35,057 nt of DNA from Parapedobacter tibetensis (GTDB taxonomy: Bacteria; Bacteroidota; Bacteroidia; Sphingobacteriales; Sphingobacteriaceae). The notes under the pieces were generated by a model that saw only the letters and a list, made by a program, of their open reading frames with translations, was not told the origin of the DNA and made no database searches. Positions within the stretch are counted from its first letter, which is position 1, and each line of letters starts with the position of its first letter. The stretch spans positions 776 through 35,832 of the forward strand of contig NZ_JAMXBE010000026.1 in the NCBI RefSeq assembly GCF_024704835.1, read 5' to 3'. Below, piece by piece: positions 14,765 to 24,006 of this stretch. The position numbers and the translations under genes are program-made.

Positions 14765-15096
14765 GCGGTTGCCCTGTGGGCAAGCGTGGGTTCAAACCCC
14801 GGATTAGCCCCATTGAGGTTATCCGGGCGATATTCTACCGATTGAAGACGGGTTGCCAGTGGCGGGATCCACCGGAGGGGTATTTTGTCCGGGGACGTCA
14901 ACCTAGTTCCATCGGTCCCGTTATATCACCTAAATTGGGGTAGTATTTCCCACAATTATGGTGTGAAGAAACGATAAGATTTTTATTTTCCTTTGTCTTG
15001 TTAATTGCTTCGTTCAAGATTTTGATACTTCGACAAGTTAACAGCGTACTATTCCTGGGGAGGATTAACAGCAAGAAAAAAGTTCAAATAAGTCTG

Positions 15097-15133: not shown

Positions 15134-15802
15134 ATGGGCAAAAACAAGAAAACCACCATGCGCCGATTAGTATTGGCGGTGGGGGAACTCTATGATGAGC
15201 AGGGCGTCAAAGGTATCGGGGTTAATAAAGTAGCAAGGAAAGCGGGGGTAGACAAGAACCTGATATACCGATATTTCGGTAGTTTGGAGAACCTGTTGGA
15301 ACAGTATGTGCTGATGAAGCAAAATTGGGACAACACGATCCATAGGATGCTCCAAACCCTGGATAGCAAGAGTAAATTGAACTCCGAAGACCTTACCGGT
15401 TTCTTCTTGGAAAAACAATTCGCCACACTTTGCCAAGACGATGCCCTAAGGAAGATACTGTTTTCGAAATACACGGATCACGAGAATGTTTTTTTCGAGC
15501 GCATCTACGGCAATCGGGAAGCCATGATAGTCGGGTTATGCGATAAGGCCGGTGTGCACCTTGAGGATGCTGACATTGGCTACCGGTCGGTTTTCGCGGT
15601 GTTGCTAGCCGCCACTTATTTCCTGTCATTGGAAGCACATAGCGGATCAGGCGTTTTCTGTGCGATAGACCTCAAATGCGAGCTGGGCAAGGAAGAAATC
15701 AAGAAAGCCATCCGTGCCATCAATGGCTGGGCTTTCGAAATGGGAAGAGTGCAAGGGCAGGATACCCAGGAGGACAGTTCTGCGGAAAGCCTGAAGAAAT
15801 AA
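15134..15802 (+). CDS. TetR-family transcriptional regulator upstream of the peptide cluster
   Basis: The 222-residue product has a TetR helix-turn-helix in its first 60 residues (KGIGVNKVARKAGVDKNLIYRYFGSLENLLEQYV), with the IYRYFG recognition-helix signature. The C-terminal ligand domain is long and includes the hydrophobic run SVFAVLLAATYFLSLEAHSG. The tail is polar (QGQDTQEDSSAESLKK). It lies 256 bases before the VKOR-thioredoxin fusion on the same strand, with a 20-bp perfect palindrome between them, and may control the peptide export cluster. This link rests on position only. A 16-bp palindrome just before its own start suggests autoregulation. Confidence 0.88.
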   Translation: MGKNKKTTMRRLVLAVGELYDEQGVKGIGVNKVARKAGVDKNLIYRYFGSLENLLEQYVLMKQNWDNTIHRMLQTLDSKSKLNSEDLTGFFLEKQFATLCQDDALRKILFSKYTDHENVFFERIYGNREAMIVGLCDKAGVHLEDADIGYRSVFAVLLAATYFLSLEAHSGSGVFCAIDLKCELGKEEIKKAIRAINGWAFEMGRVQGQDTQEDSSAESLKK

Positions 15803-16058: not shown

Positions 16059-17696
16059 ATGATGATCCGAATGCTGGAAAAATTACTGTTCCCGACCGAT
16101 AGTGATACCGAAACGGTGCGTGCGTATCTTCGCCTGCTCGGCGTACCCGTTACCAAAACGGCGGTAAAAGCCGCCTTAGGGGAGCATCCGGATTCGCCGA
16201 GTCTACTTTCGGTCAGCGATGCGCTTAGCGGTTTCGGTGTGGAAAATGTCGCCGCGAAGGTCAATGTAGAACAGCTTGGCCAGATCGAGGTTCCGTTCAT
16301 GGCCCGGATGAAATCCGGCGACGGACTATCGCTGACCATAGTGAAACGATTTGATGGTGATACAGTTATTCACCTGCCGCCGGGGCAACACCGGTGGGTA
16401 ACTTCCAGTACCGAGACATTCCAGAAAACAATCGAAGGCATCGTGTTGGTGGGCGAAGCTGGTGAGGGAGCTGGGCAACGGGACTACGCAGCTGCTCTTG
16501 CTACGGAAAAGCGGCAACAGACCCATATCATTTTAGGACTGCTGACGCTTCCCGCATTGGCTGCGATAGCCATCGTACTGGCTTTGTTCCAAGACGGGTG
16601 GGCAGTCCTTGTCGCATCGTTGTACATACTACTCGCCCTCGTGGGTTCTGCTGTTTGTGTTTTGTTGCTTTGGTACGAGGTGGATCGTCATAATCCAGCT
16701 TTGAAACAAGTATGTTCAGGTAAAAAAAACGTGGATTGCGCCGCCATCCTCCAATCCGGGGCGTCTAGCCTATTCGGTGTCAGCTGGAGCCTCATCGGGT
16801 TCAGTTATTTTACAGGTGCCTCGCTGGCCCTATTGGCCGGAGGCATTGCCAATCCACAGATATACTTGCCATTGTCTGCCTTGAGTTTGTCCGCAATCCC
16901 TTATATCATATTTTCCCTGTACTACCAATGGCGCGTGGCCAAACAATGGTGCGTGCTTTGCCTTTTGGTACAGGGTATCCTCGTTGTACAAGCGATGCTA
17001 GTGATGGCTGACGGGCGGCTGTTCACTACCGATATTGGATTTTCAACTGCGGCCGCACTAACATTAGCCACATGCTTTGCCCTTCCATTCCTTGCGGGCT
17101 TGCTGATTGTTCCCGCCTTTAAAAAAGCGAAAGAGGGTGAGAACCACCGAATGGGTTTGGCCAGACTGAAACATAGTCCACAGATTTTCCAAGCGCTGTT
17201 GGGGAAGCAACGGGCAGTCACCGAATCCACCGACGGGCTGGGTATCAGGCTCGGGAACCCGAATGCCAAACACCGAATTATCAAGGTGTGCAACCCGTAT
17301 TGCGGCCCGTGTGCCAAGGCCCATCCCGCCATTGAGGAGATATTGTGTCATAATCCGAATGTGCAGGTACAAATTATTTTTACCGCTTCAGACGATGTAC
17401 AGGATGGAAAAGCCTCACCAGTAAAGCATCTGCTGGCCATAGCCGAAAAGGGTGATGAGCAGTTCACAAAGCAGGCTTTAGGGGATTGGTACAATGCACC
17501 CAAAAAAGAAAATGGAGACTTTGTTTCCAAATACCCGATGAATGGAGAAATTGAAAAGCAAGGACATAAATTGACAGCCATGCGGGAGTGGTGCAACGGA
17601 ATGGAAATTTCCTTTACGCCTACTTTCTTTGTGAATGGGTATCAGCTGCCAGATATGTATAACTTAAATGACTTAAAATATTTTTTGAGATCATAA
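16059..17696 (+). CDS. C39-like / VKOR / thioredoxin fusion membrane oxidase
   Basis: The 545-residue protein has three parts. Residues 1-135 resemble a C39 peptidase fold (VRAYLRLLGVPVTKTAVKAALGEHPDSPSLLSVSDALSGFGVENVAAKV), but no cysteine stands where the catalytic one should be. Residues 155-352 form a VKOR membrane domain with several transmembrane segments, the loop pair Cys219/Cys227 and the active-site CxxC at Cys298-Cys301 (QWCVLC). Residues 390-545 form a DsbA-like thioredoxin domain with CGPC at 415-418 and a TPTFFVNG cis-proline region. VKOR passes electrons to quinone and its thioredoxin partner oxidises substrate thiols in the periplasm. It precedes a four-cysteine GG-leader peptide by 156 bases, so it is probably that peptide's disulfide oxidase. 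The dead C39 domain may bind leaders or be a fold relic. Confidence 0.88.
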   Translation: MMIRMLEKLLFPTDSDTETVRAYLRLLGVPVTKTAVKAALGEHPDSPSLLSVSDALSGFGVENVAAKVNVEQLGQIEVPFMARMKSGDGLSLTIVKRFDGDTVIHLPPGQHRWVTSSTETFQKTIEGIVLVGEAGEGAGQRDYAAALATEKRQQTHIILGLLTLPALAAIAIVLALFQDGWAVLVASLYILLALVGSAVCVLLLWYEVDRHNPALKQVCSGKKNVDCAAILQSGASSLFGVSWSLIGFSYFTGASLALLAGGIANPQIYLPLSALSLSAIPYIIFSLYYQWRVAKQWCVLCLLVQGILVVQAMLVMADGRLFTTDIGFSTAAALTLATCFALPFLAGLLIVPAFKKAKEGENHRMGLARLKHSPQIFQALLGKQRAVTESTDGLGIRLGNPNAKHRIIKVCNPYCGPCAKAHPAIEEILCHNPNVQVQIIFTASDDVQDGKASPVKHLLAIAEKGDEQFTKQALGDWYNAPKKENGDFVSKYPMNGEIEKQGHKLTAMREWCNGMEISFTPTFFVNGYQLPDMYNLNDLKYFLRS

Positions 17697-17779
17697 TAAA
17701 GAAAGGAGGGCAAGCAATTGACAAAGTAAACAAACTATAAAAATATAACCTGCTGCACAGAGTAGAAGGCTGTAGTGAT

Positions 17780-17808
17780 AATTTGTCCATTAAAATGGAC
17801 TACAAATT
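17780..17808 (+). promoter_or_regulatory. Extended hairpin upstream of the peptide precursor
   Basis: GTCCATT (17785-17791) pairs perfectly with AATGGAC (17794-17800) around AA. The stem extends outward as AATTT / AAATT with a three-base bulge. It lies 45 bases before the precursor ATG and has no T tract directly after it. It could be an operator or an mRNA 5' stabilising stem. No clear TAnnTTTG promoter was found between it and the ATG. Confidence 0.45.
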
Positions 17809-17852
17809 AATAGAATTTCAATTCTAAATTGTTTTACGAAAAAATCAAAATA

Positions 17853-18161
17853 ATGAAAAAATTAAAATTAGATTTAAAGAATGTACAGGAAATCCTAACA
17901 AGGGAGCAGATGAAACATATCGTTGGAGGGGCTGGGAGTTGTGCAATTTATTTTTACTCTAGCCACGCGAGTGACCCCTGGTATTCAACTGGGCCGTGGA
18001 GTTATACTGGTGCGCAGTCTACACACATTAACACGGTAACTGGCTCGATGAAAGTTATTGGGATTTCATTCGTCGAGGTAAATAATATGTTGGAAAACAC
18101 TGCAGGAGGTACAAGACGATGGTGCTGTGACAACTGTGGATCAGCTTCTTGGTTGGAGTGA
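17853..18161 (+). CDS. Double-glycine leader peptide precursor (bacteriocin or signal)
   Basis: The start is the ATG at 17853 (MKKLKLDLKNV); a TTG at 17829 in the same frame is unlikely. The first 26 residues match the Bacteroidota GG-leader type: basic-hydrophobic MKKLKLDL, then EILTREQMKHIVGG. Cleavage after Gly26 by a C39 peptidase would free a 76-residue core starting AGSC. The core has cysteines at position 4 and three near the end (WCCDNC), an even number suited to disulfides, and is rich in Tyr, Trp, Ser, Thr and Gly. I know no family for the core. It sits between a disulfide oxidase and a C39 exporter, and a strong hairpin follows its stop at once. It could be an antibacterial peptide, a signal, or a modified peptide; no modification enzyme is present apart from thiol oxidases. 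Confidence 0.85.
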   Translation: MKKLKLDLKNVQEILTREQMKHIVGGAGSCAIYFYSSHASDPWYSTGPWSYTGAQSTHINTVTGSMKVIGISFVEVNNMLENTAGGTRRWCCDNCGSASWLE

Positions 18162-18164
18162 AGA

Positions 18165-18197
18165 AAGGGTGTCCGCGCGTTTAATGTGGGCACCCTT
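18165..18197 (+). terminator. Stem-loop directly after the precursor, probable (partial) terminator
   Basis: AAGGGTGTCC (18165-18174) pairs with GGGCACCCTT (18188-18197) over ten positions with one G-U pair and a 13-base loop. It begins 4 bases after the precursor stop. The following ATCTAACTTATTATTC is U-rich but broken. A partial terminator or RNase barrier here would let the precursor be expressed above the downstream genes. A smaller TCCGG / CCGGA hairpin lies at 18405-18422 before the next gene. The 285 bases between the two genes hold no other ORF I trust. Confidence 0.6.
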
Positions 18198-18446
18198 ATC
18201 TAACTTATTATTCAATACTTCGGTAAATTTTTTCTTGCTTCAAATGCGTTCTATGGCTGATCTTGATTTCCGCATTATATTTTTTTCAATGTCAGCAAAA
18301 CATCTGAGTTTGATTAAATTATCTGACTACATCACGATAGTTAATTTGTTTTTGAATATCAGTAACTTAAGAAAATTTTCACTACACCACATTTTTAAAA
18401 TTCATCCGGAAAACTTACCGGAGTATTGATTATTAAATTTCCAATA

Positions 18447-19970
18447 ATGAAAATTTCAAAGTATTTTCAACAATTTTGTGTCTTCGTGTCTTTATTCGCC
18501 ACAACTAGTATTTGCTGTTGCACGAATGCGTTAAGCGACTCTGTACAGGCCCAAGGGCAGGTTACATTAATTTTTAATAGTTCTCCGACGTTTTCTGACA
18601 CCATCTTTATAAGTGAGAAAGCAAGTATGTCTGGGGAGGCCTCGATAGCCTTATGGGAAAATTTATCGGCCACGCCTATTAAACCAGTTGCGGGTAAAAT
18701 AGATACCATTTCAATTCCGATAAACAGTTCCAAGGTAAAATTGCGGCACAGGTACCGCGAGTTATTTTATTCCGATATCGTATTATATCCCCATGATACG
18801 CTTGAAGTCACCTATTTGGATGCCAACCCCGTATTCCACATCAGAAACCGGAAAGTAAAAGCGTACGATTTGAAAGTGGACTCTCTATTATATGAGTCGC
18901 GTTATGCGAAGCAAAAATTTCCCGCCCTATTATTCTATCAGACTTATCCCATTCTTAAGTATCTGAACCTTAAAGAGGATAGAATGGTAATCGACCAGCA
19001 AGAGAAAGAGCATTGGGGGCAACGGGCACTGGAGGAGATGGAGGATGAGATGGCTTTTATAGATAGCCTCAGGAATAGTAAACTGGTCTCACAGGATGTG
19101 TATGAAATGAGGAGGGACCGGCTCGTCTTTATGCGGTATGTGATGGACTATGGCCGTCGTCGAATCACTGATAACGATGTCCGGCTTATCATTGACTCTA
19201 CGAGAAACAGCGGTATAGACATGCCTTATTCCTATTTTCTGGATTTAAGCGAGTTATTTGCGTCCAGGCAGCTGTCTGCTGAAACACCGCTACTTTACGA
19301 GACGGTTAAACCGGTTTCAAAAGATAGCGGAAGTTATGCAATGCTGGAGGGATCTGATGTTTTCCCGGCGCGGGTTAAGGAATTGCTCCTGTATAAACAA
19401 GTGCGAGGAGCTGCGGAACACTTACCCTTGGAAGATTTTAGAGCTATCTTTCAAAAATTCAGAAATTATACGGCAGACACCATGCTACTCCATTCAATAC
19501 AGCGTGAGTATTTGCTTGATTTCGATTCGCTTCGTTCGGCCTCAAATTCAGTGATTTTATTACTAGCTGATAAGAAGCAAATAACTTTAGATCAACTTTT
19601 GAAGAATAATAAAGGAAAAGTGTTGTATATCGATTTTTGGGCCAGTTGGTGTGTGCCATGTCGACAGGCGATGCCAGCATCTCACAAGTTGAAAAAAACA
19701 TATAAAGACAAGCCTATTCATTTTATTTATATATCCATTGACGGGAAATTTGATGACTGGGTGCAAGCGTCGAAAGAAGAAGGACTATCGGATGACACGA
19801 GTAGTTACCTTTACCTTAATGTAAGAGCCTCCAAGTGGGCCAAACAACTAAATCTTCAAACCATCCCCCGTTATGTCATTTTCAATAAAGAGGGAGAAAT
19901 ATCATATCATAACGCACTTGGACCAAATGAGGCAGGAATAAAAAACATATTGAATAAACATTTTGACTAA
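18447..19970 (+). CDS. TlpA-like thioredoxin lipoprotein
   Basis: I start at the ATG at 18447 (MKISKYFQQF). The 507-residue product has a signal segment ending in TTSICCCT, so one of the three cysteines is probably lipidated. A long N-terminal region of about 350 residues, beta-rich then helical, resembles the extensions found on Bacteroidota TlpA proteins, but I cannot name it. The C-terminal thioredoxin domain starts with LYIDFWASWCVPCRQAMP (CVPC near residue 402) and has TIPRYVIFNKEGEI with its cis-proline. TlpA-type proteins reduce or isomerise disulfides on the periplasmic side, which fits quality control of a cysteine-rich secreted peptide. Its base composition looks AT-rich like the precursor and unlike the exporter genes. 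Confidence 0.85.
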   Translation: MKISKYFQQFCVFVSLFATTSICCCTNALSDSVQAQGQVTLIFNSSPTFSDTIFISEKASMSGEASIALWENLSATPIKPVAGKIDTISIPINSSKVKLRHRYRELFYSDIVLYPHDTLEVTYLDANPVFHIRNRKVKAYDLKVDSLLYESRYAKQKFPALLFYQTYPILKYLNLKEDRMVIDQQEKEHWGQRALEEMEDEMAFIDSLRNSKLVSQDVYEMRRDRLVFMRYVMDYGRRRITDNDVRLIIDSTRNSGIDMPYSYFLDLSELFASRQLSAETPLLYETVKPVSKDSGSYAMLEGSDVFPARVKELLLYKQVRGAAEHLPLEDFRAIFQKFRNYTADTMLLHSIQREYLLDFDSLRSASNSVILLLADKKQITLDQLLKNNKGKVLYIDFWASWCVPCRQAMPASHKLKKTYKDKPIHFIYISIDGKFDDWVQASKEEGLSDDTSSYLYLNVRASKWAKQLNLQTIPRYVIFNKEGEISYHNALGPNEAGIKNILNKHFD

Positions 19971-19980
19971 AGCAGCATTT

Positions 19981-20385
19981 ATGAGGATTTTTGTTGTTGT
20001 GAGAACAATCCGTTTATTCTGCCCTGTAGCATTGGTGTTAGCGGCATGCCTATCCAATGAAAGTAAAAAACATACTATTGCTGCCGAAGGGGAGGTGGCC
20101 GGTATCGAAAAAAAACGGGATAGTATTTATGTAAAATTTGACACAACAAGTGCGCCCGAAAACAGGGGAGGCATTTCGTTGTTTCATGCCCACAACAACC
20201 AGCGAATCATTGGACAGTTGACAGGTTATAAAGTGTATCCATTTGAATCGAGGAGCGCGTTTATGCTTCTTGCATTCCCGAATGAGGCGATTTACCTTGT
20301 TATGTCGGGTGACAGTGTGATTGTAAGTTATGATGATGATTACTATCCAAGGGTTCGTGTATTGGAGGCAGGGCTATTTAAATAA
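19981..20385 (+). CDS. Small lipoprotein of unknown function, possibly frameshifted
   Basis: The start is the ATG at 19981. The 134-residue product has a lipoprotein signal ending VLAAC (Cys23) and a mature part with strand-like stretches (KKRDSIYVKFD, IYLVMSGDSVIVSYDDDYYP). I recognise no family. It follows the TlpA-like gene by 10 bases and precedes the exporter. Roles as immunity protein or folding partner are both possible and unproven. After the TAA at 20383-20385 the next frame continues for 22 codons as NKNAIYHPDSIYERLKQKYL and so on to a TAG at 20447-20449. That tail looks like a natural C terminus and could be restored by removing one A from the TTTAAATAAAAA run near 20378. The stop may therefore be a frameshift or sequencing error. 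Confidence 0.65.
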   Translation: MRIFVVVRTIRLFCPVALVLAACLSNESKKHTIAAEGEVAGIEKKRDSIYVKFDTTSAPENRGGISLFHAHNNQRIIGQLTGYKVYPFESRSAFMLLAFPNEAIYLVMSGDSVIVSYDDDYYPRVRVLEAGLFK

Positions 20386-20473
20386 AAATGCTATATACCA
20401 TCCAGATAGTATATACGAACGACTGAAGCAGAAATATCTTACTCAATAGCTTGACTTTATAGACCGCTTAATA

Positions 20474-22660
20474 TTGAAACTTTTCCCCCACTACCGCCAA
20501 CAGGACCAGATGGACTGCGGGGCCACCTGCCTACGAATGGTGTGCAAACACTATGGCCGCAATATTGACATCCATCGTCTGCGCAAGCTCTGCCAGATTA
20601 CCAAAACCGGAGTGAACCTGTTGGGTATCAGTGAAGCGTCCGAGAAAATTGGCCTCCGAACACAGGGGGTGAAGCTCACACTGGAACAGTTGGGTGAGAT
20701 CCTGCTGCCCTGCATCCTGCACTGGCGGCAGGACCATTTCGTTGTGCTGTACAAGGTGAAAAAGGGGTGCTATTACATCGCCGACCCCGCCAGCGGTAGG
20801 CGGAAACTTACCGAAAAGGAATTCACCGATAACTGGTTTGCCCATAAGGAGCTCTACAACGGTGTTTCCTTGGCGCTAAGTCCAACCCCCCAGTTTTATG
20901 AAAATGACGAGGGCGACGGGGACAATACCGTGCTGCGTTGGGGCACTGTGCTGCGCTACTTTTACGCCTACCGTAGGCTGTTCGTGCAGCTGGTGCTGGG
21001 ACTGTTAGTCGGAACCATCCTGCAGCTCATCACCCCCTTCCTCACCCAGTCGGTGGTGGACATCGGAATCAGTACGCGCAACCTCAACTTCATCCACCTC
21101 ATCCTCATCGCCCAGATCGCCCTGTTCATCGGGCAGACGGGCGTGGAGTTCATCCGTTCGTGGATACTGCTGCACATCAGCACCCGGGTGAATATCTCCA
21201 TCCTCACCGACCTCCTCATAAAGCTGATGAAGCTGCCGATGAAGTTCTTCGAGACCAAGACCACGGGTGACATCATGCAGCGCATGGCCGACCAGCAGCG
21301 CATCGAGGCCTTCCTCACCGGCTCCACGCTCGGAACGATGTTCTCCTTCGTGAACCTGGTCGTCTTCGGCTTCGTGCTGGCGTTCTACCATGCGGGCGTC
21401 TTTTTCGTGTTCATGGGAAGCACCGTGCTGTACACCGGCTGGATACTGCTGTTCCTCAGACGCAGGCGCGAGCTGGACCACAAACGCTTCGCGATCTCAT
21501 CGGACAACCAGACCAACATCGTCGAACTGGTGGGCGCCATGCAGGAGATCAAGCTGAACAACAGCGAAAGGCAGAAGCGCTGGATATGGGAAGGGATACA
21601 GGCACGGCTGTTCAAATTCAAGGTCAGGAGCCTGGCACTGTCACAGTACCAGCAGGCCGGTTCCATGGCGGTGAACCAGCTCAAGAACATCTTCATCACG
21701 TTCATGAGCGCCAAGGCGGTGATCGATGGCGACCTCACCCTCGGGGGCATGGTGGCCATCCAGTATATCGTGGGCATGGTGAGCAGCCCCATCGAGCAGC
21801 TGTTGGGCTTCATCCAGTCCTACCAGGACGCGAAGATCAGCCTCGAACGCATCAACGAGATCTACCGGGAGGAAGATGAGGAGCCGGTGGAACGGGAATG
21901 GCTCAGGGAACTCCCACTGGATAAAAGCATATCGCTCCGTGACGTCACCTTCCGGTATCCCGGCGCGGGCAACGATCCCGTGCTCACGGACATCGATTTG
22001 GTTTTCCCCAAGGGGAAGACCACCGCCATCGTGGGCATGAGCGGCAGCGGCAAGACGACCATACTGAAACTTATCCTCCGGTTCTATGAACCCGAGGCTG
22101 GGGAAATCCGCATCGGCCAGACCAAGCTCAACCAAATCGGTTTCCCTACCTGGCGGGACGCCTGCGGGGTGGTGATGCAGGACGGGTTCATTTTCGCTGA
22201 CACGATCGAGAACAACATCGCCGTGGGGGATGAGTTCCCCGACCGCAAGAAAGTGGAACAAGCCATCCGCATGGCCAACCTCGGTGAGTTCATCGAGGAA
22301 CAACCCTTCGGGCTGAAAACGAAAATTGGCACAGCCGGCAAAGGCATCAGCCAGGGGCAACGGCAACGCCTGCTTATCGCTCGGGCGGTGTACAAGGATC
22401 CCCATTACATCCTCTTCGACGAGGCCACCAACGCCTTGGACGCCAACAACGAGCGGGTTATCATCGATAACCTGAGGGATTTCCTGAAAAACCGGACAGC
22501 CATCATCGTGGCCCACCGGCTGAGCACGGTGAGCCATTCGGACAACATCGTGGTGCTGGACAGGGGGCGTGTGGTGGAACAGGGCACCCACCGGGAACTG
22601 ACGGCGAAGCGGGGCGATTATTACCATTTGGTCAAAAACCAGCTGGAATTGGGGAATTGA
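20474..22660 (+). CDS. C39-peptidase ABC exporter for GG-leader peptides
   Basis: The product is 728 residues starting at a TTG (MKLFPHYRQQDQMDCGATCL). This start is chosen because that opening is the normal N terminus of the family and no ATG lies nearby. Residues 1-135 are a C39 cysteine peptidase, with catalytic Cys15 in DQMDCGATC, the histidine in WRQDHFVVLY and the aspartate in YIADPASG. Residues 160-460 are the six-helix transmembrane domain. The ATPase has Walker A GMSGSGKTT near 520, the signature ISQGQRQR near 626, Walker B ILFDEATNALD near 647 and the H-loop VAHRLST. Such proteins cut the precursor after GG and export the core. It is co-oriented with the precursor and an HlyD adaptor, forming a type I-like channel. 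The gene is visibly GC-rich compared with the two genes before it. Confidence 0.95.
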   Translation: MKLFPHYRQQDQMDCGATCLRMVCKHYGRNIDIHRLRKLCQITKTGVNLLGISEASEKIGLRTQGVKLTLEQLGEILLPCILHWRQDHFVVLYKVKKGCYYIADPASGRRKLTEKEFTDNWFAHKELYNGVSLALSPTPQFYENDEGDGDNTVLRWGTVLRYFYAYRRLFVQLVLGLLVGTILQLITPFLTQSVVDIGISTRNLNFIHLILIAQIALFIGQTGVEFIRSWILLHISTRVNISILTDLLIKLMKLPMKFFETKTTGDIMQRMADQQRIEAFLTGSTLGTMFSFVNLVVFGFVLAFYHAGVFFVFMGSTVLYTGWILLFLRRRRELDHKRFAISSDNQTNIVELVGAMQEIKLNNSERQKRWIWEGIQARLFKFKVRSLALSQYQQAGSMAVNQLKNIFITFMSAKAVIDGDLTLGGMVAIQYIVGMVSSPIEQLLGFIQSYQDAKISLERINEIYREEDEEPVEREWLRELPLDKSISLRDVTFRYPGAGNDPVLTDIDLVFPKGKTTAIVGMSGSGKTTILKLILRFYEPEAGEIRIGQTKLNQIGFPTWRDACGVVMQDGFIFADTIENNIAVGDEFPDRKKVEQAIRMANLGEFIEEQPFGLKTKIGTAGKGISQGQRQRLLIARAVYKDPHYILFDEATNALDANNERVIIDNLRDFLKNRTAIIVAHRLSTVSHSDNIVVLDRGRVVEQGTHRELTAKRGDYYHLVKNQLELGN

Positions 22661-22698
22661 TAGATAGATATGAGACGTGAGATTTGAGACATTAGACC

Positions 22699-24006
22699 AT
22701 GGACGTGAAAGATAAAGAACCGGATACCTTACCCGCCGATCGGCGGGAAGTCCACACGGAGGACATCCAAGACATCATCGGCACGCCGCCGCATGGGTTG
22801 CTCCGCTGGGGCATCACATGGGTGCTGGTGGTACTGTTGGGCATCGTGGCGCTGGCGGCATTCATCCGCTATCCCGATATCGTGCGGGCACCGGTACGCA
22901 TCAACGCAGCGAATGCACCCAAGGCCGTCATCAGCAGGATTTCCGGCAACATCGTGGACATCTTGGTGGAAGAGAACGCTGCCGTGGAGGCAGGCCAGCC
23001 GTTGGCATGGATGGAGAGCACGGCCGACCATGGGGAAGTGCTGGAACTATTGGAGAGGCTCCATGGGCTGAGGGACCGGCAGTTCGGGGATGGCTATGGA
23101 GAATCCACGGCGGTGGCCCCTCCCATCAACCTGCAACTGGGGGAATTGCAGAATAGCTACCAGGCCTTCTACCAATCCTACCTCACCTACCGGGCGGCGA
23201 TAGGCGACGGCATCTACCTGAAAAGGCGGGCTTACATCCAGAGGGACATGCAAAACGTCGAACAGCAACGCAAGCAACTGGAATTGCAGCGGGAATTGCA
23301 GGAACGTGAGTACACATTGGCCGAAACGGAATTCGAACGGTACAGGGAACTGGCCGAACGGAAGGTCATTTCCCCTTCGGAATACCAGCAGCAGCAGGCC
23401 ACTTTGCTGGCCAAGCAACACCCCATGCAGCAGACGCAGTCGGCCTTATTGGCCAACGAGGCCAGCCACACGGCCAAGGCAAAGGAGCTGGCCGACCTGG
23501 ACAACCAGATCGCCGAGGAGAAGTCGAAATTCATGCAGGCGTTGAACAGCCTCATCAGCGAGGCGGAACAGTGGAAAAGCCAGCACGTGCTCACCGCCCG
23601 GCAGGCGGGCACGGTGGTGTATGCGGGCATCATCCAGCGGAACCAGCATATCGAAGTGGGACAGGAGGTATTCCATATCAACCCGGGTAGCACCGATTTC
23701 TTCGGGGAGGTGAATATCCCCCAATACAACATGGGCAAGGTGGAGGAGGGGCAGGAAGTGTTGGTGAAGCTTAATAGCTTCCCGTTCGAGGAGTACGGGG
23801 TACTGAAGGGATCGGTGGGCCGGCTGAGCGGCGTGCCATACCAAGACAGCATCTTCCTTTCGCGGGTGGACCTGCAGCCGATTGCCCCGCATCGGCATAT
23901 CCGGCTCACTACCGGCATGGTTGGCACGGCCGAGATTGTCACCGAGGATGCCTCCCTGCTGCAGCGGTTGGTGAGGAACATTCGGTTGGTGTTGGGTAGG
24001 GATTAA
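22699..24006 (+). CDS. HlyD-family periplasmic adaptor of the peptide exporter
   Basis: The 435-residue protein has a cytoplasmic N terminus, one transmembrane helix at about 35-60 (LLRWGITWVLVVLLGIVALAAFIRY), a lipoyl-like half (ISRISGNIVDILVEENAAVEAGQPLAWME), a long coiled-coil hairpin from about 100 to 295 (QQRKQLELQRELQEREYTLAETEFERY and onward) and a second half-motif plus beta-barrel (ARQAGTVVYAGIIQRNQHIEVGQEVF...). HlyD adaptors link an inner-membrane ABC exporter to an outer-membrane TolC-like channel. No TolC gene is in the window, so the cell's general one is probably used. It lies 38 bases after the exporter and ends the cluster. Composition is GC-rich like the exporter. Confidence 0.92.
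   Translation: MDVKDKEPDTLPADRREVHTEDIQDIIGTPPHGLLRWGITWVLVVLLGIVALAAFIRYPDIVRAPVRINAANAPKAVISRISGNIVDILVEENAAVEAGQPLAWMESTADHGEVLELLERLHGLRDRQFGDGYGESTAVAPPINLQLGELQNSYQAFYQSYLTYRAAIGDGIYLKRRAYIQRDMQNVEQQRKQLELQRELQEREYTLAETEFERYRELAERKVISPSEYQQQQATLLAKQHPMQQTQSALLANEASHTAKAKELADLDNQIAEEKSKFMQALNSLISEAEQWKSQHVLTARQAGTVVYAGIIQRNQHIEVGQEVFHINPGSTDFFGEVNIPQYNMGKVEEGQEVLVKLNSFPFEEYGVLKGSVGRLSGVPYQDSIFLSRVDLQPIAPHRHIRLTTGMVGTAEIVTEDASLLQRLVRNIRLVLGRD

Follow-up and report, generated by a model that had tools for sequence, protein, structure and literature searches.

Bacteroidetocins are class IIf peptides of Bacteroidota that carry a double-glycine (GG) leader, have four cysteines in forms A and B, and are encoded with a C39-type ATP-binding cassette (ABC) exporter and a thiol oxidoreductase whose deletion attenuates activity (PMC6671954; cited here and below for the portion of the article drawn on). 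Coyne et al. 2019, citing others, describe Bacteroides as lacking general disulfide machinery (PMC6671954). Here, we analyse a 35,057-nucleotide (nt) stretch of the Parapedobacter tibetensis genome (5.98 Mb), referred to as the window (contig NZ_JAMXBE010000026.1, positions 776 to 35,832), in which a cluster at 16059-24006 on the + strand encodes a VKOR-thioredoxin membrane oxidase, a GG-leader precursor, a TlpA-like thioredoxin, a small lipoprotein, a C39 exporter and an HlyD-type adaptor. The presence, orientation and coordinates of these six same-strand genes are as given in the original prediction for this DNA, which was made from the sequence alone. The domain composition and its recurrence make it probable that the cluster represents a membrane oxidase tied by a dead peptidase domain to GG-leader peptides or to their exporter, yielding disulfide-rich secreted peptides.

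Within the portions of the literature drawn on, bacteroidetocins are the nearest precedent in the phylum. Bacteroidetocins A and B have a leader of 15 amino acids (aa) and a core of 42, against 26 and 76 in the window, and their region comprises four genes, including one for a five-transmembrane protein of unknown kind, with no mention of HlyD in that portion of the article (PMC6671954). The window departs from the pattern of a 15-16 aa leader, a core of about 42 aa, a five-transmembrane protein and a separate oxidoreductase, its oxidase being fused to VKOR. Hoylesella oralis has a bacteroidetocin-like region (L245:4774-9207) encoding a transmembrane protein, an open reading frame (ORF), a two-cysteine peptide with a 15-aa leader, a thioredoxin-like protein and a C39 ABC protein, and this coexists with a VKOR cluster on another contig. 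That the five-transmembrane protein might be an unrecognised VKOR found no support in this genome, where PF07884 (E <= 1) matched only two VKOR fusions; Pfam likewise yields nothing at E <= 0.01 for the transmembrane ORF of L245, and the region is bacteroidetocin-like by layout only.

The sublancin cluster sunA-sunT-bdbA-sunS-bdbB resembles the window in its leader-bearing precursor, its leader-removing exporter SunT, and the oxidase BdbB, which serves two disulfides beside a second, dispensable thiol protein, BdbA; it differs in having the glycosyltransferase SunS and a Gram-positive host (PMC6391423, likewise for the portion drawn on). A sublancin-type glycocin would be expected to have a peptide glycosyltransferase in its cluster, and none is present among the six genes. 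The cyanobacterial VKOR-thioredoxin fusion (4nv5, 4nv6, 3kp9) also joins a VKOR to a thioredoxin domain, and 4nv6 gives a profile match to the window fusion (E 1.4e-4). BdbB is DsbB-like rather than a VKOR, and to our knowledge neither the sublancin oxidase nor the cyanobacterial fusion has a C39-like domain, and the latter has no tie to an exporter. The C39-like domain of HlyB (3zua), a docking domain without peptidase activity, shares the fold found in the window but forms part of the exporter rather than of an oxidase. VKOR and vitamin K are unmentioned in PMC10352776, as is vitamin K in PMC13289728, and we found no published account of a role for a C39-like-VKOR fusion in the open-licence literature, a body of work outside which most subscription journals lie.

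The oxidase (545 aa; 16059-17696) has Pfam matches to VKOR (E 5.4e-16) and Thioredoxin_4 (E 2.8e-7), and no NCBIfam model matched it over its whole length. Its residues 1-135 (16059-16463) have a C39 fold, which the original prediction had overlooked. In profile comparison this segment aligns with exporter C39 domains (hhalign 98.6%, E 1e-15) and with the PCAT1, ComA and LahT-type (double-glycine protease) domains in the PDB (E 2e-8 to 1e-6). AlphaFold models have a predicted local distance difference test score (pLDDT) of 93.2 for the whole fusion and 91.8 for the domain alone, and Foldseek matches to these models include PCAT1, ComA, the HlyB domain 3zua, 3k8u and 6mpz, a domain with its leader bound. 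The catalytic cysteine is lost, with serine in the window and asparagine in 37 of 50 homologues, none of which has cysteine at this column. In a 41-row domain alignment (nine VKOR loci are omitted, and a few also from another alignment), the catalytic glutamine is present in 0/41 rows (20 gaps, 21 other letters), histidine in 2/41 and aspartate in 19/41. With the catalytic cysteine lost throughout and the histidine lost in nearly all rows, this domain should not be a peptidase, judging from its sequence. The exporter (20474-22660; Peptidase_C39 E 2.1e-37) has Cys15, His88 and Asp104 together with ABC membrane and ATPase domains, as seen by Pfam and alignment, and Gln9, Cys15, His88 and Asp104 are all kept in 20 of 20 aligned exporter C39 domains.

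The redox parts of the fusion are retained. The VKOR domain (16620-17003; PF07884, residues 188-315) is followed by a DsbA/BdbD/ScsC-like thioredoxin domain with CGPC (17241-17693; PF13462, residues 395-540), for which Foldseek returns ScsC, BdbD and alpha-DsbA2. At least 49 of 50 homologues retain each of Cys 219, 227, 298 and 301, Ser 233 and the CxxC at 415/418; the CxxC, second cysteine pair, conserved serine and modelled helix bundle point to a genuine VKOR-family protein. An additional Trp-Cys at residues 511-512 of the DsbA-like domain is also well represented (Trp in 50/50, Cys in 41/50 homologues). Elsewhere in the host genome, the region L040:4732-10852 holds another C39-like-VKOR fusion, a divergent copy with 25% identity, which exceeds the Pfam Peptidase_C39 cut-off (31.5 vs 22 bits), the PF03412 match starting at profile position 34. 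Its neighbours – a Lant_dehydr_C protein, a glycosyltransferase and a C39 exporter – have the appearance of a lanthipeptide-like cluster. These two fusions are the sole quinone-linked oxidases found in the host genome; no DsbB was found there by a type of search that also missed the divergent VKOR copy (the whole-genome search with PF07884), such that a divergent DsbB could escape it.

The arrangement recurs widely. Of 151 family genomes, 40 have a match to the fusion at E 1e-10 (partial VKOR matches left out), as do 40 of 395 genomes of the phylum, family members included, at E 1e-30. A pattern scan of species genomes gave 269 stretches confirmed as relatives, and 79 loci were retained (the named loci), with Pedobacter, Mucilaginibacter, Chitinophaga, Sphingobacterium, Niastella, Anditalea and Hoylesella represented; these overlap in some genomes with the 50 family loci. 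GG-leader ORFs were sought with a scan that scores leader positions only, with no core term; at a score of 7.5 it returned 142 matches, versus 39 in reversed DNA, and counts were therefore taken at 9.0 (also at 8.5 for distant loci). The original prediction had named as its own undoing a failure of the VKOR fusion and exporter ever to accompany a GG-leader gene, and the opposite is seen: a same-strand GG-leader ORF (score at least 9) starts within 1.5 kb downstream at 36/50 family loci, with five more recognised by eye, and at 44/79 named loci, and a C39 exporter lies within the fetched stretch at 39/50 family loci, downstream on the same strand in 30 of these. The peptide starts a median of 165 nt beyond the VKOR match. 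A distant set, comprising 20 of the 33 matching genomes outside the family and extending to other families and another class, has an exporter match at 18 of 20 loci.

Outside the family, Hoylesella oralis ATCC 33269 has a near counterpart, in which the order is VKOR fusion, GG peptide, TlpA-like gene, two ORFs, C39 exporter, HlyD and outer-membrane efflux protein, with the exporter gene broken into two ORFs. Two copies of this cluster seem to be present (L213, L246), some 26 kb from one another and in opposite orientation, owing either to duplication or to an assembly effect; VKOR is matched twice there, and two exporters score equally. Three plasmids, from Emticicia, Parabacteroides distasonis and Spirosoma (L275, L276, L277; three of eight matching records were taken), also carry VKOR fusions together with C39 exporters, the peptides being annotated as hypothetical or unlisted. 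The Emticicia plasmid order is VKOR, a 64-aa ORF, TlpA, ORF, VKOR, small ORF, TlpA, ORF, TlpA and an annotated peptidase-ABC gene, and it has in common with Hoylesella oralis the succession VKOR, peptide, TlpA and then C39 exporter. With recurrence at other loci, in other genomes and on plasmids, the arrangement is beyond chance.

These distributions bear on whether the fusion is simply the general disulfide oxidase of its host, standing beside an exporter by accident. VKOR proteins are general disulfide oxidases in other bacteria, and with no DsbB found some general oxidase might be expected in this genome. A housekeeping role sits poorly, however, with the 111 of 151 family genomes that have no fusion match (E 1e-10), with the exporter at most family VKOR loci, with the fusion to a C39-like domain, and with the exporter company on three plasmids, and we regard it as very improbable.

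The precursor is as originally predicted a GG-leader peptide with four core cysteines: 102 aa, with a 26-aa cysteine-free leader ending in GG (17853-17930) and a 76-aa core (17931-18161 with the stop; cysteines at precursor positions 30, 91, 92 and 95). The GG end, the usual hydrophobic positions and the adjacent C39 exporter predict an exported peptide. The four cysteines and the WCCDxCxSASW tail recur in relatives from Parapedobacter defluvii and Hoylesella oralis, the latter aligning over 75 columns at 27% (pairwise E 2e-7) with four cysteines and a WCCDxCGSASW tail. Some peptides of L260 and L261, from another class of the phylum, have CCxSCG, reminiscent of the WCCDxCG of the window core. 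A single VKOR fusion in Parapedobacter luteus (L041:800-8943) is followed downstream by five consecutive six-cysteine GG peptides, two of them alike. The core varies from locus to locus, as the original prediction had anticipated. Among 63 of the 109 downstream peptides whose cores are considered below, NCBIfam matches at E <= 0.1 are to leader_Chryseo (46/63), TIGR04149 (39/63) and a CCPGW bacteriocin-like model (12/63), models that are named for the leader or for one core type only.

Disulfide pairing predicts an even number of core cysteines, and an excess of even counts fits. Pooling both locus sets and removing cores more than 0.6 alike leaves 109 downstream GG cores, not fully independent given that related cores below 0.6 remain; 102 of these have an even cysteine count, 7 odd and none zero (p about 5e-23 against 1:1). 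Cutting long ORFs into 55-aa pieces gave a parity baseline of 49 even and 207 odd counts among pieces with at least 3 Cys; this leans odd, since few pieces hold more than three cysteines, and the 1:1 null was used in its place. Downstream same-strand cores of the distant set behave similarly (15/16 non-redundant cores even at score 8.5, 12/13 at 9.0); with position disregarded, the 26 cores of this set at 8.5 comprise 16 even, 3 odd and 7 cysteine-free. The GG peptides of the Emticicia, Spirosoma and Parabacteroides plasmids are even in 6/6 cases (4 or 6 Cys), an illustration more than a test, as three of the six lie in or overlap a gap in which ORFs were sought on the condition of three or more cysteines. 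An inhibitor-cystine-knot-like spacing – a regular-expression pattern, not a fold – occurs in 24 of the 109 cores versus a shuffled mean of 3.3 and maximum of 9 (200 shuffles), and weak Pfam matches to knottin-type families occur for single cores among the 63 scanned. The four-cysteine window core is outside this type. The original prediction of one pathway making a disulfide-bonded secreted peptide draws support from the linkage of GG peptides and exporters and from these even counts, insofar as sequence can speak to it.

The same cysteines could instead serve thioether or radical S-adenosylmethionine (SAM) chemistry, as in a ribosomally synthesized and post-translationally modified peptide (RiPP) of the TIGR04149 type. 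Leaders across the loci do resemble TIGR04149, with fewer resembling class I lanthipeptide leaders, and some VKOR loci have lantibiotic dehydratase, LanC or glycosyltransferase genes. The window leader itself falls under the TIGR04149 cut-off (14.8 vs 25 bits), and a scan of 17 window proteins, including the products of all six cluster genes, shows no radical SAM, LanB or LanM domain. With the even-count excess and the cystine-knot-like spacing also pointing elsewhere, this chemistry is an improbable fate for the cysteines. On balance, secretion-linked disulfide formation is favoured over a general oxidase, over radical-SAM/lanthionine chemistry and over chance.

The exporters, too, bear on the association. 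Of 95 exporter places, 41 are near a VKOR and 54 are not, and 41 of these 54, without a VKOR beside them, were taken as controls (L120-L159, L089). Control GG ORFs at score 9, with L120 excluded, number 12: six cysteine-free, three even (2, 4, 2) and three odd (5, 5, 5). L120, a control by distance, has a VKOR remnant and three even-cysteine peptides. In a quick-method tree of 79 exporter rows, which has long branches and unresolved forks, one branch (Shimodaira-Hasegawa-like approximate likelihood ratio test, SH-aLRT, 97) sets off 46 rows that include 37 of the 39 linked to a VKOR; one exporter is in the tree twice (L047/L090 overlap), giving 36/38 genes, and near-copies help the clustering. 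The VKOR label requires 10 changes on this tree versus a shuffled mean of 26.6, with 0 of 500 shuffles as low. Nine VKOR-less rows lie within the VKOR exporter group, of which L122, L123 and L128 have cysteine-free GG cores; VKOR loss accompanies cysteine loss at some loci, not all. The peptides of L124, L128 and L150 lie on the strand opposite the exporter.

If the dead domain tethers the oxidase, it may do so through the leader or by docking on the exporter rather than the leader. That VKOR presence tracks exporter lineage, and that the docking domain of HlyB is a structural match, are both in keeping with exporter docking. Set against this is the SLLSISD helix, among the best-kept parts of the C39-like domain and common to exporters too, which presumably lines the leader groove. 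Exporter docking is possible, though somewhat less likely than not.

The third gene (18447-19970) encodes a TlpA/ResA-like thioredoxin with WCVPC (Thioredoxin_8 E 1.9e-14), by eye a probable lipoprotein. Of 39 VKOR-linked exporters, 16 have a TlpA-like gene (E 1e-5) no more than 8 kb away, versus 2 of 41 controls (p 1e-4), L120 among the two, and Hoylesella oralis has a relative in the same place (28% over 492 aligned columns). The original prediction had devoted both an oxidase and a second thioredoxin to the pathway; the oxidase part is supported, and the second thioredoxin proves frequent but optional: at 15/50 loci a same-strand TlpA-like gene separates VKOR from the exporter, and all 15 also have a GG peptide there. 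TlpA/ResA proteins are usually reductants, and with the gene optional, the protein could protect the producer or keep thiols reduced for export rather than correct disulfides. Its position after the peptide gene and its tie to VKOR-linked exporters favour maturation instead, and protection or thiol reduction seems rather unlikely.

Several observations weigh against an oxidase dedicated to GG-leader peptides. By score, no GG ORF lies within 1.5 kb at 14/50 family and 35/79 named loci, and one does at only 6/20 distant loci; L040 and L063, and the VKOR-less L121 and L133, have no convincing GG ORF at all. Cysteine-free GG peptides lie upstream of VKOR on the opposite strand at L269, L270, L273 and L274, in tandem in the latter two. 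Seven of the 109 cores have an odd count, and the 35 GG ORFs upstream of or opposite VKOR, outside the 109, comprise 23 even, 7 odd and 5 cysteine-free. Cysteine-containing GG peptides occur at VKOR-less rows (L120: 6, 6, 8; L124: 5; L130: 13; L150: 4, 4), and the genomes of L121, L122 and L133 carry a VKOR fusion elsewhere. Six of 50 fusion homologues have a cysteine within the 17 residues around the catalytic column, not at the column itself, and TlpA was not found between VKOR and exporter at 35/50 loci. Finally, were the type I channel sealed, the core would not pass through the periplasm, which blurs the site of oxidation. Examination by eye of the 49 family and named misses reveals a leader of GG, AG or GS type ahead of a cysteine-rich core in 5/14 and 25/35, a few doubtful (L049, among the five, has a doubtful leader). 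Of the 14 remaining distant loci, also inspected by eye, 7 (L257, L258, L260, L262, L269, L273, L274) show a 4- or 6-cysteine leader peptide located 100-220 nt past VKOR.

The remaining genes add context. The HlyD-type periplasmic adaptor (22699-24006; Pfam) completes the cluster, which the original prediction had called self-contained; this is not quite right, as no outer-membrane channel gene follows HlyD and the next ORFs are on the opposite strand. The Hoylesella oralis counterpart has its outer-membrane efflux protein gene at this place. The small lipoprotein (about 19981-20385; LAAC lipobox by eye) has no Pfam or NCBIfam match and no tblastn relative in 51 loci, and as a guess only it is a candidate immunity protein. 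Upstream, a TetR-type regulator gene (15134-15802, + strand; Pfam) is a conceivable member of the cluster, and a short ORF at 14776-14943 has by eye the look of a transposase fragment.

The proposal of a secretion-linked oxidase rests on features seen directly: the domains, the loss of the catalytic cysteine, the retention of the redox cysteines, the gene linkage and the even cysteine counts. From these we infer the topology, docking partner, order of events and direction of the TlpA step as follows. The precursor would be held in the cytosol with its GG leader until the C39 ABC exporter cleaves after GG and exports the core with HlyD and an outer-membrane channel encoded elsewhere. Model helices and the known VKOR topology suggest that the fusion has five membrane helices with the N-terminus in and C-terminus out, which would place the dead C39 domain in the cytosol and the VKOR and DsbA-like active sites in the periplasm. 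The dead domain would keep the fusion beside the exporter or leader, such that the emerging core is oxidised and electrons pass to quinone; the TlpA-like protein, where present, may reduce or reshuffle wrong pairs. By analogy, the peptide is most likely a bacteriocin.

A broader view is that Bacteroidota share a secretion-coupled route of oxidative folding, in which the dead C39 domain acts as an address reader bringing a VKOR-DsbA oxidase to any GG-leader cargo; we offer this tentatively, the case falling somewhat short of even. RiPP recognition element (RRE) domains, which read leaders in RiPP enzymes, provide a comparison, and a dead peptidase domain as leader reader would become a testable idea. 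Were it true, cores would be free to vary, and the peptides would form a large natural set of disulfide-rich scaffolds, the cystine-knot-like ones among them. The triple fusion of C39-like, VKOR and DsbA-like domains could then serve as a clear key for genome mining, the system might be put to use in making disulfide-rich peptides, and the many unstudied cores behind a common leader would be a promising source of stable secreted peptides. If the interpretation is right, this bacterium, with no DsbB detected in its genome, would show how a disulfide-rich secreted peptide can be folded by an oxidase addressed to one export route.

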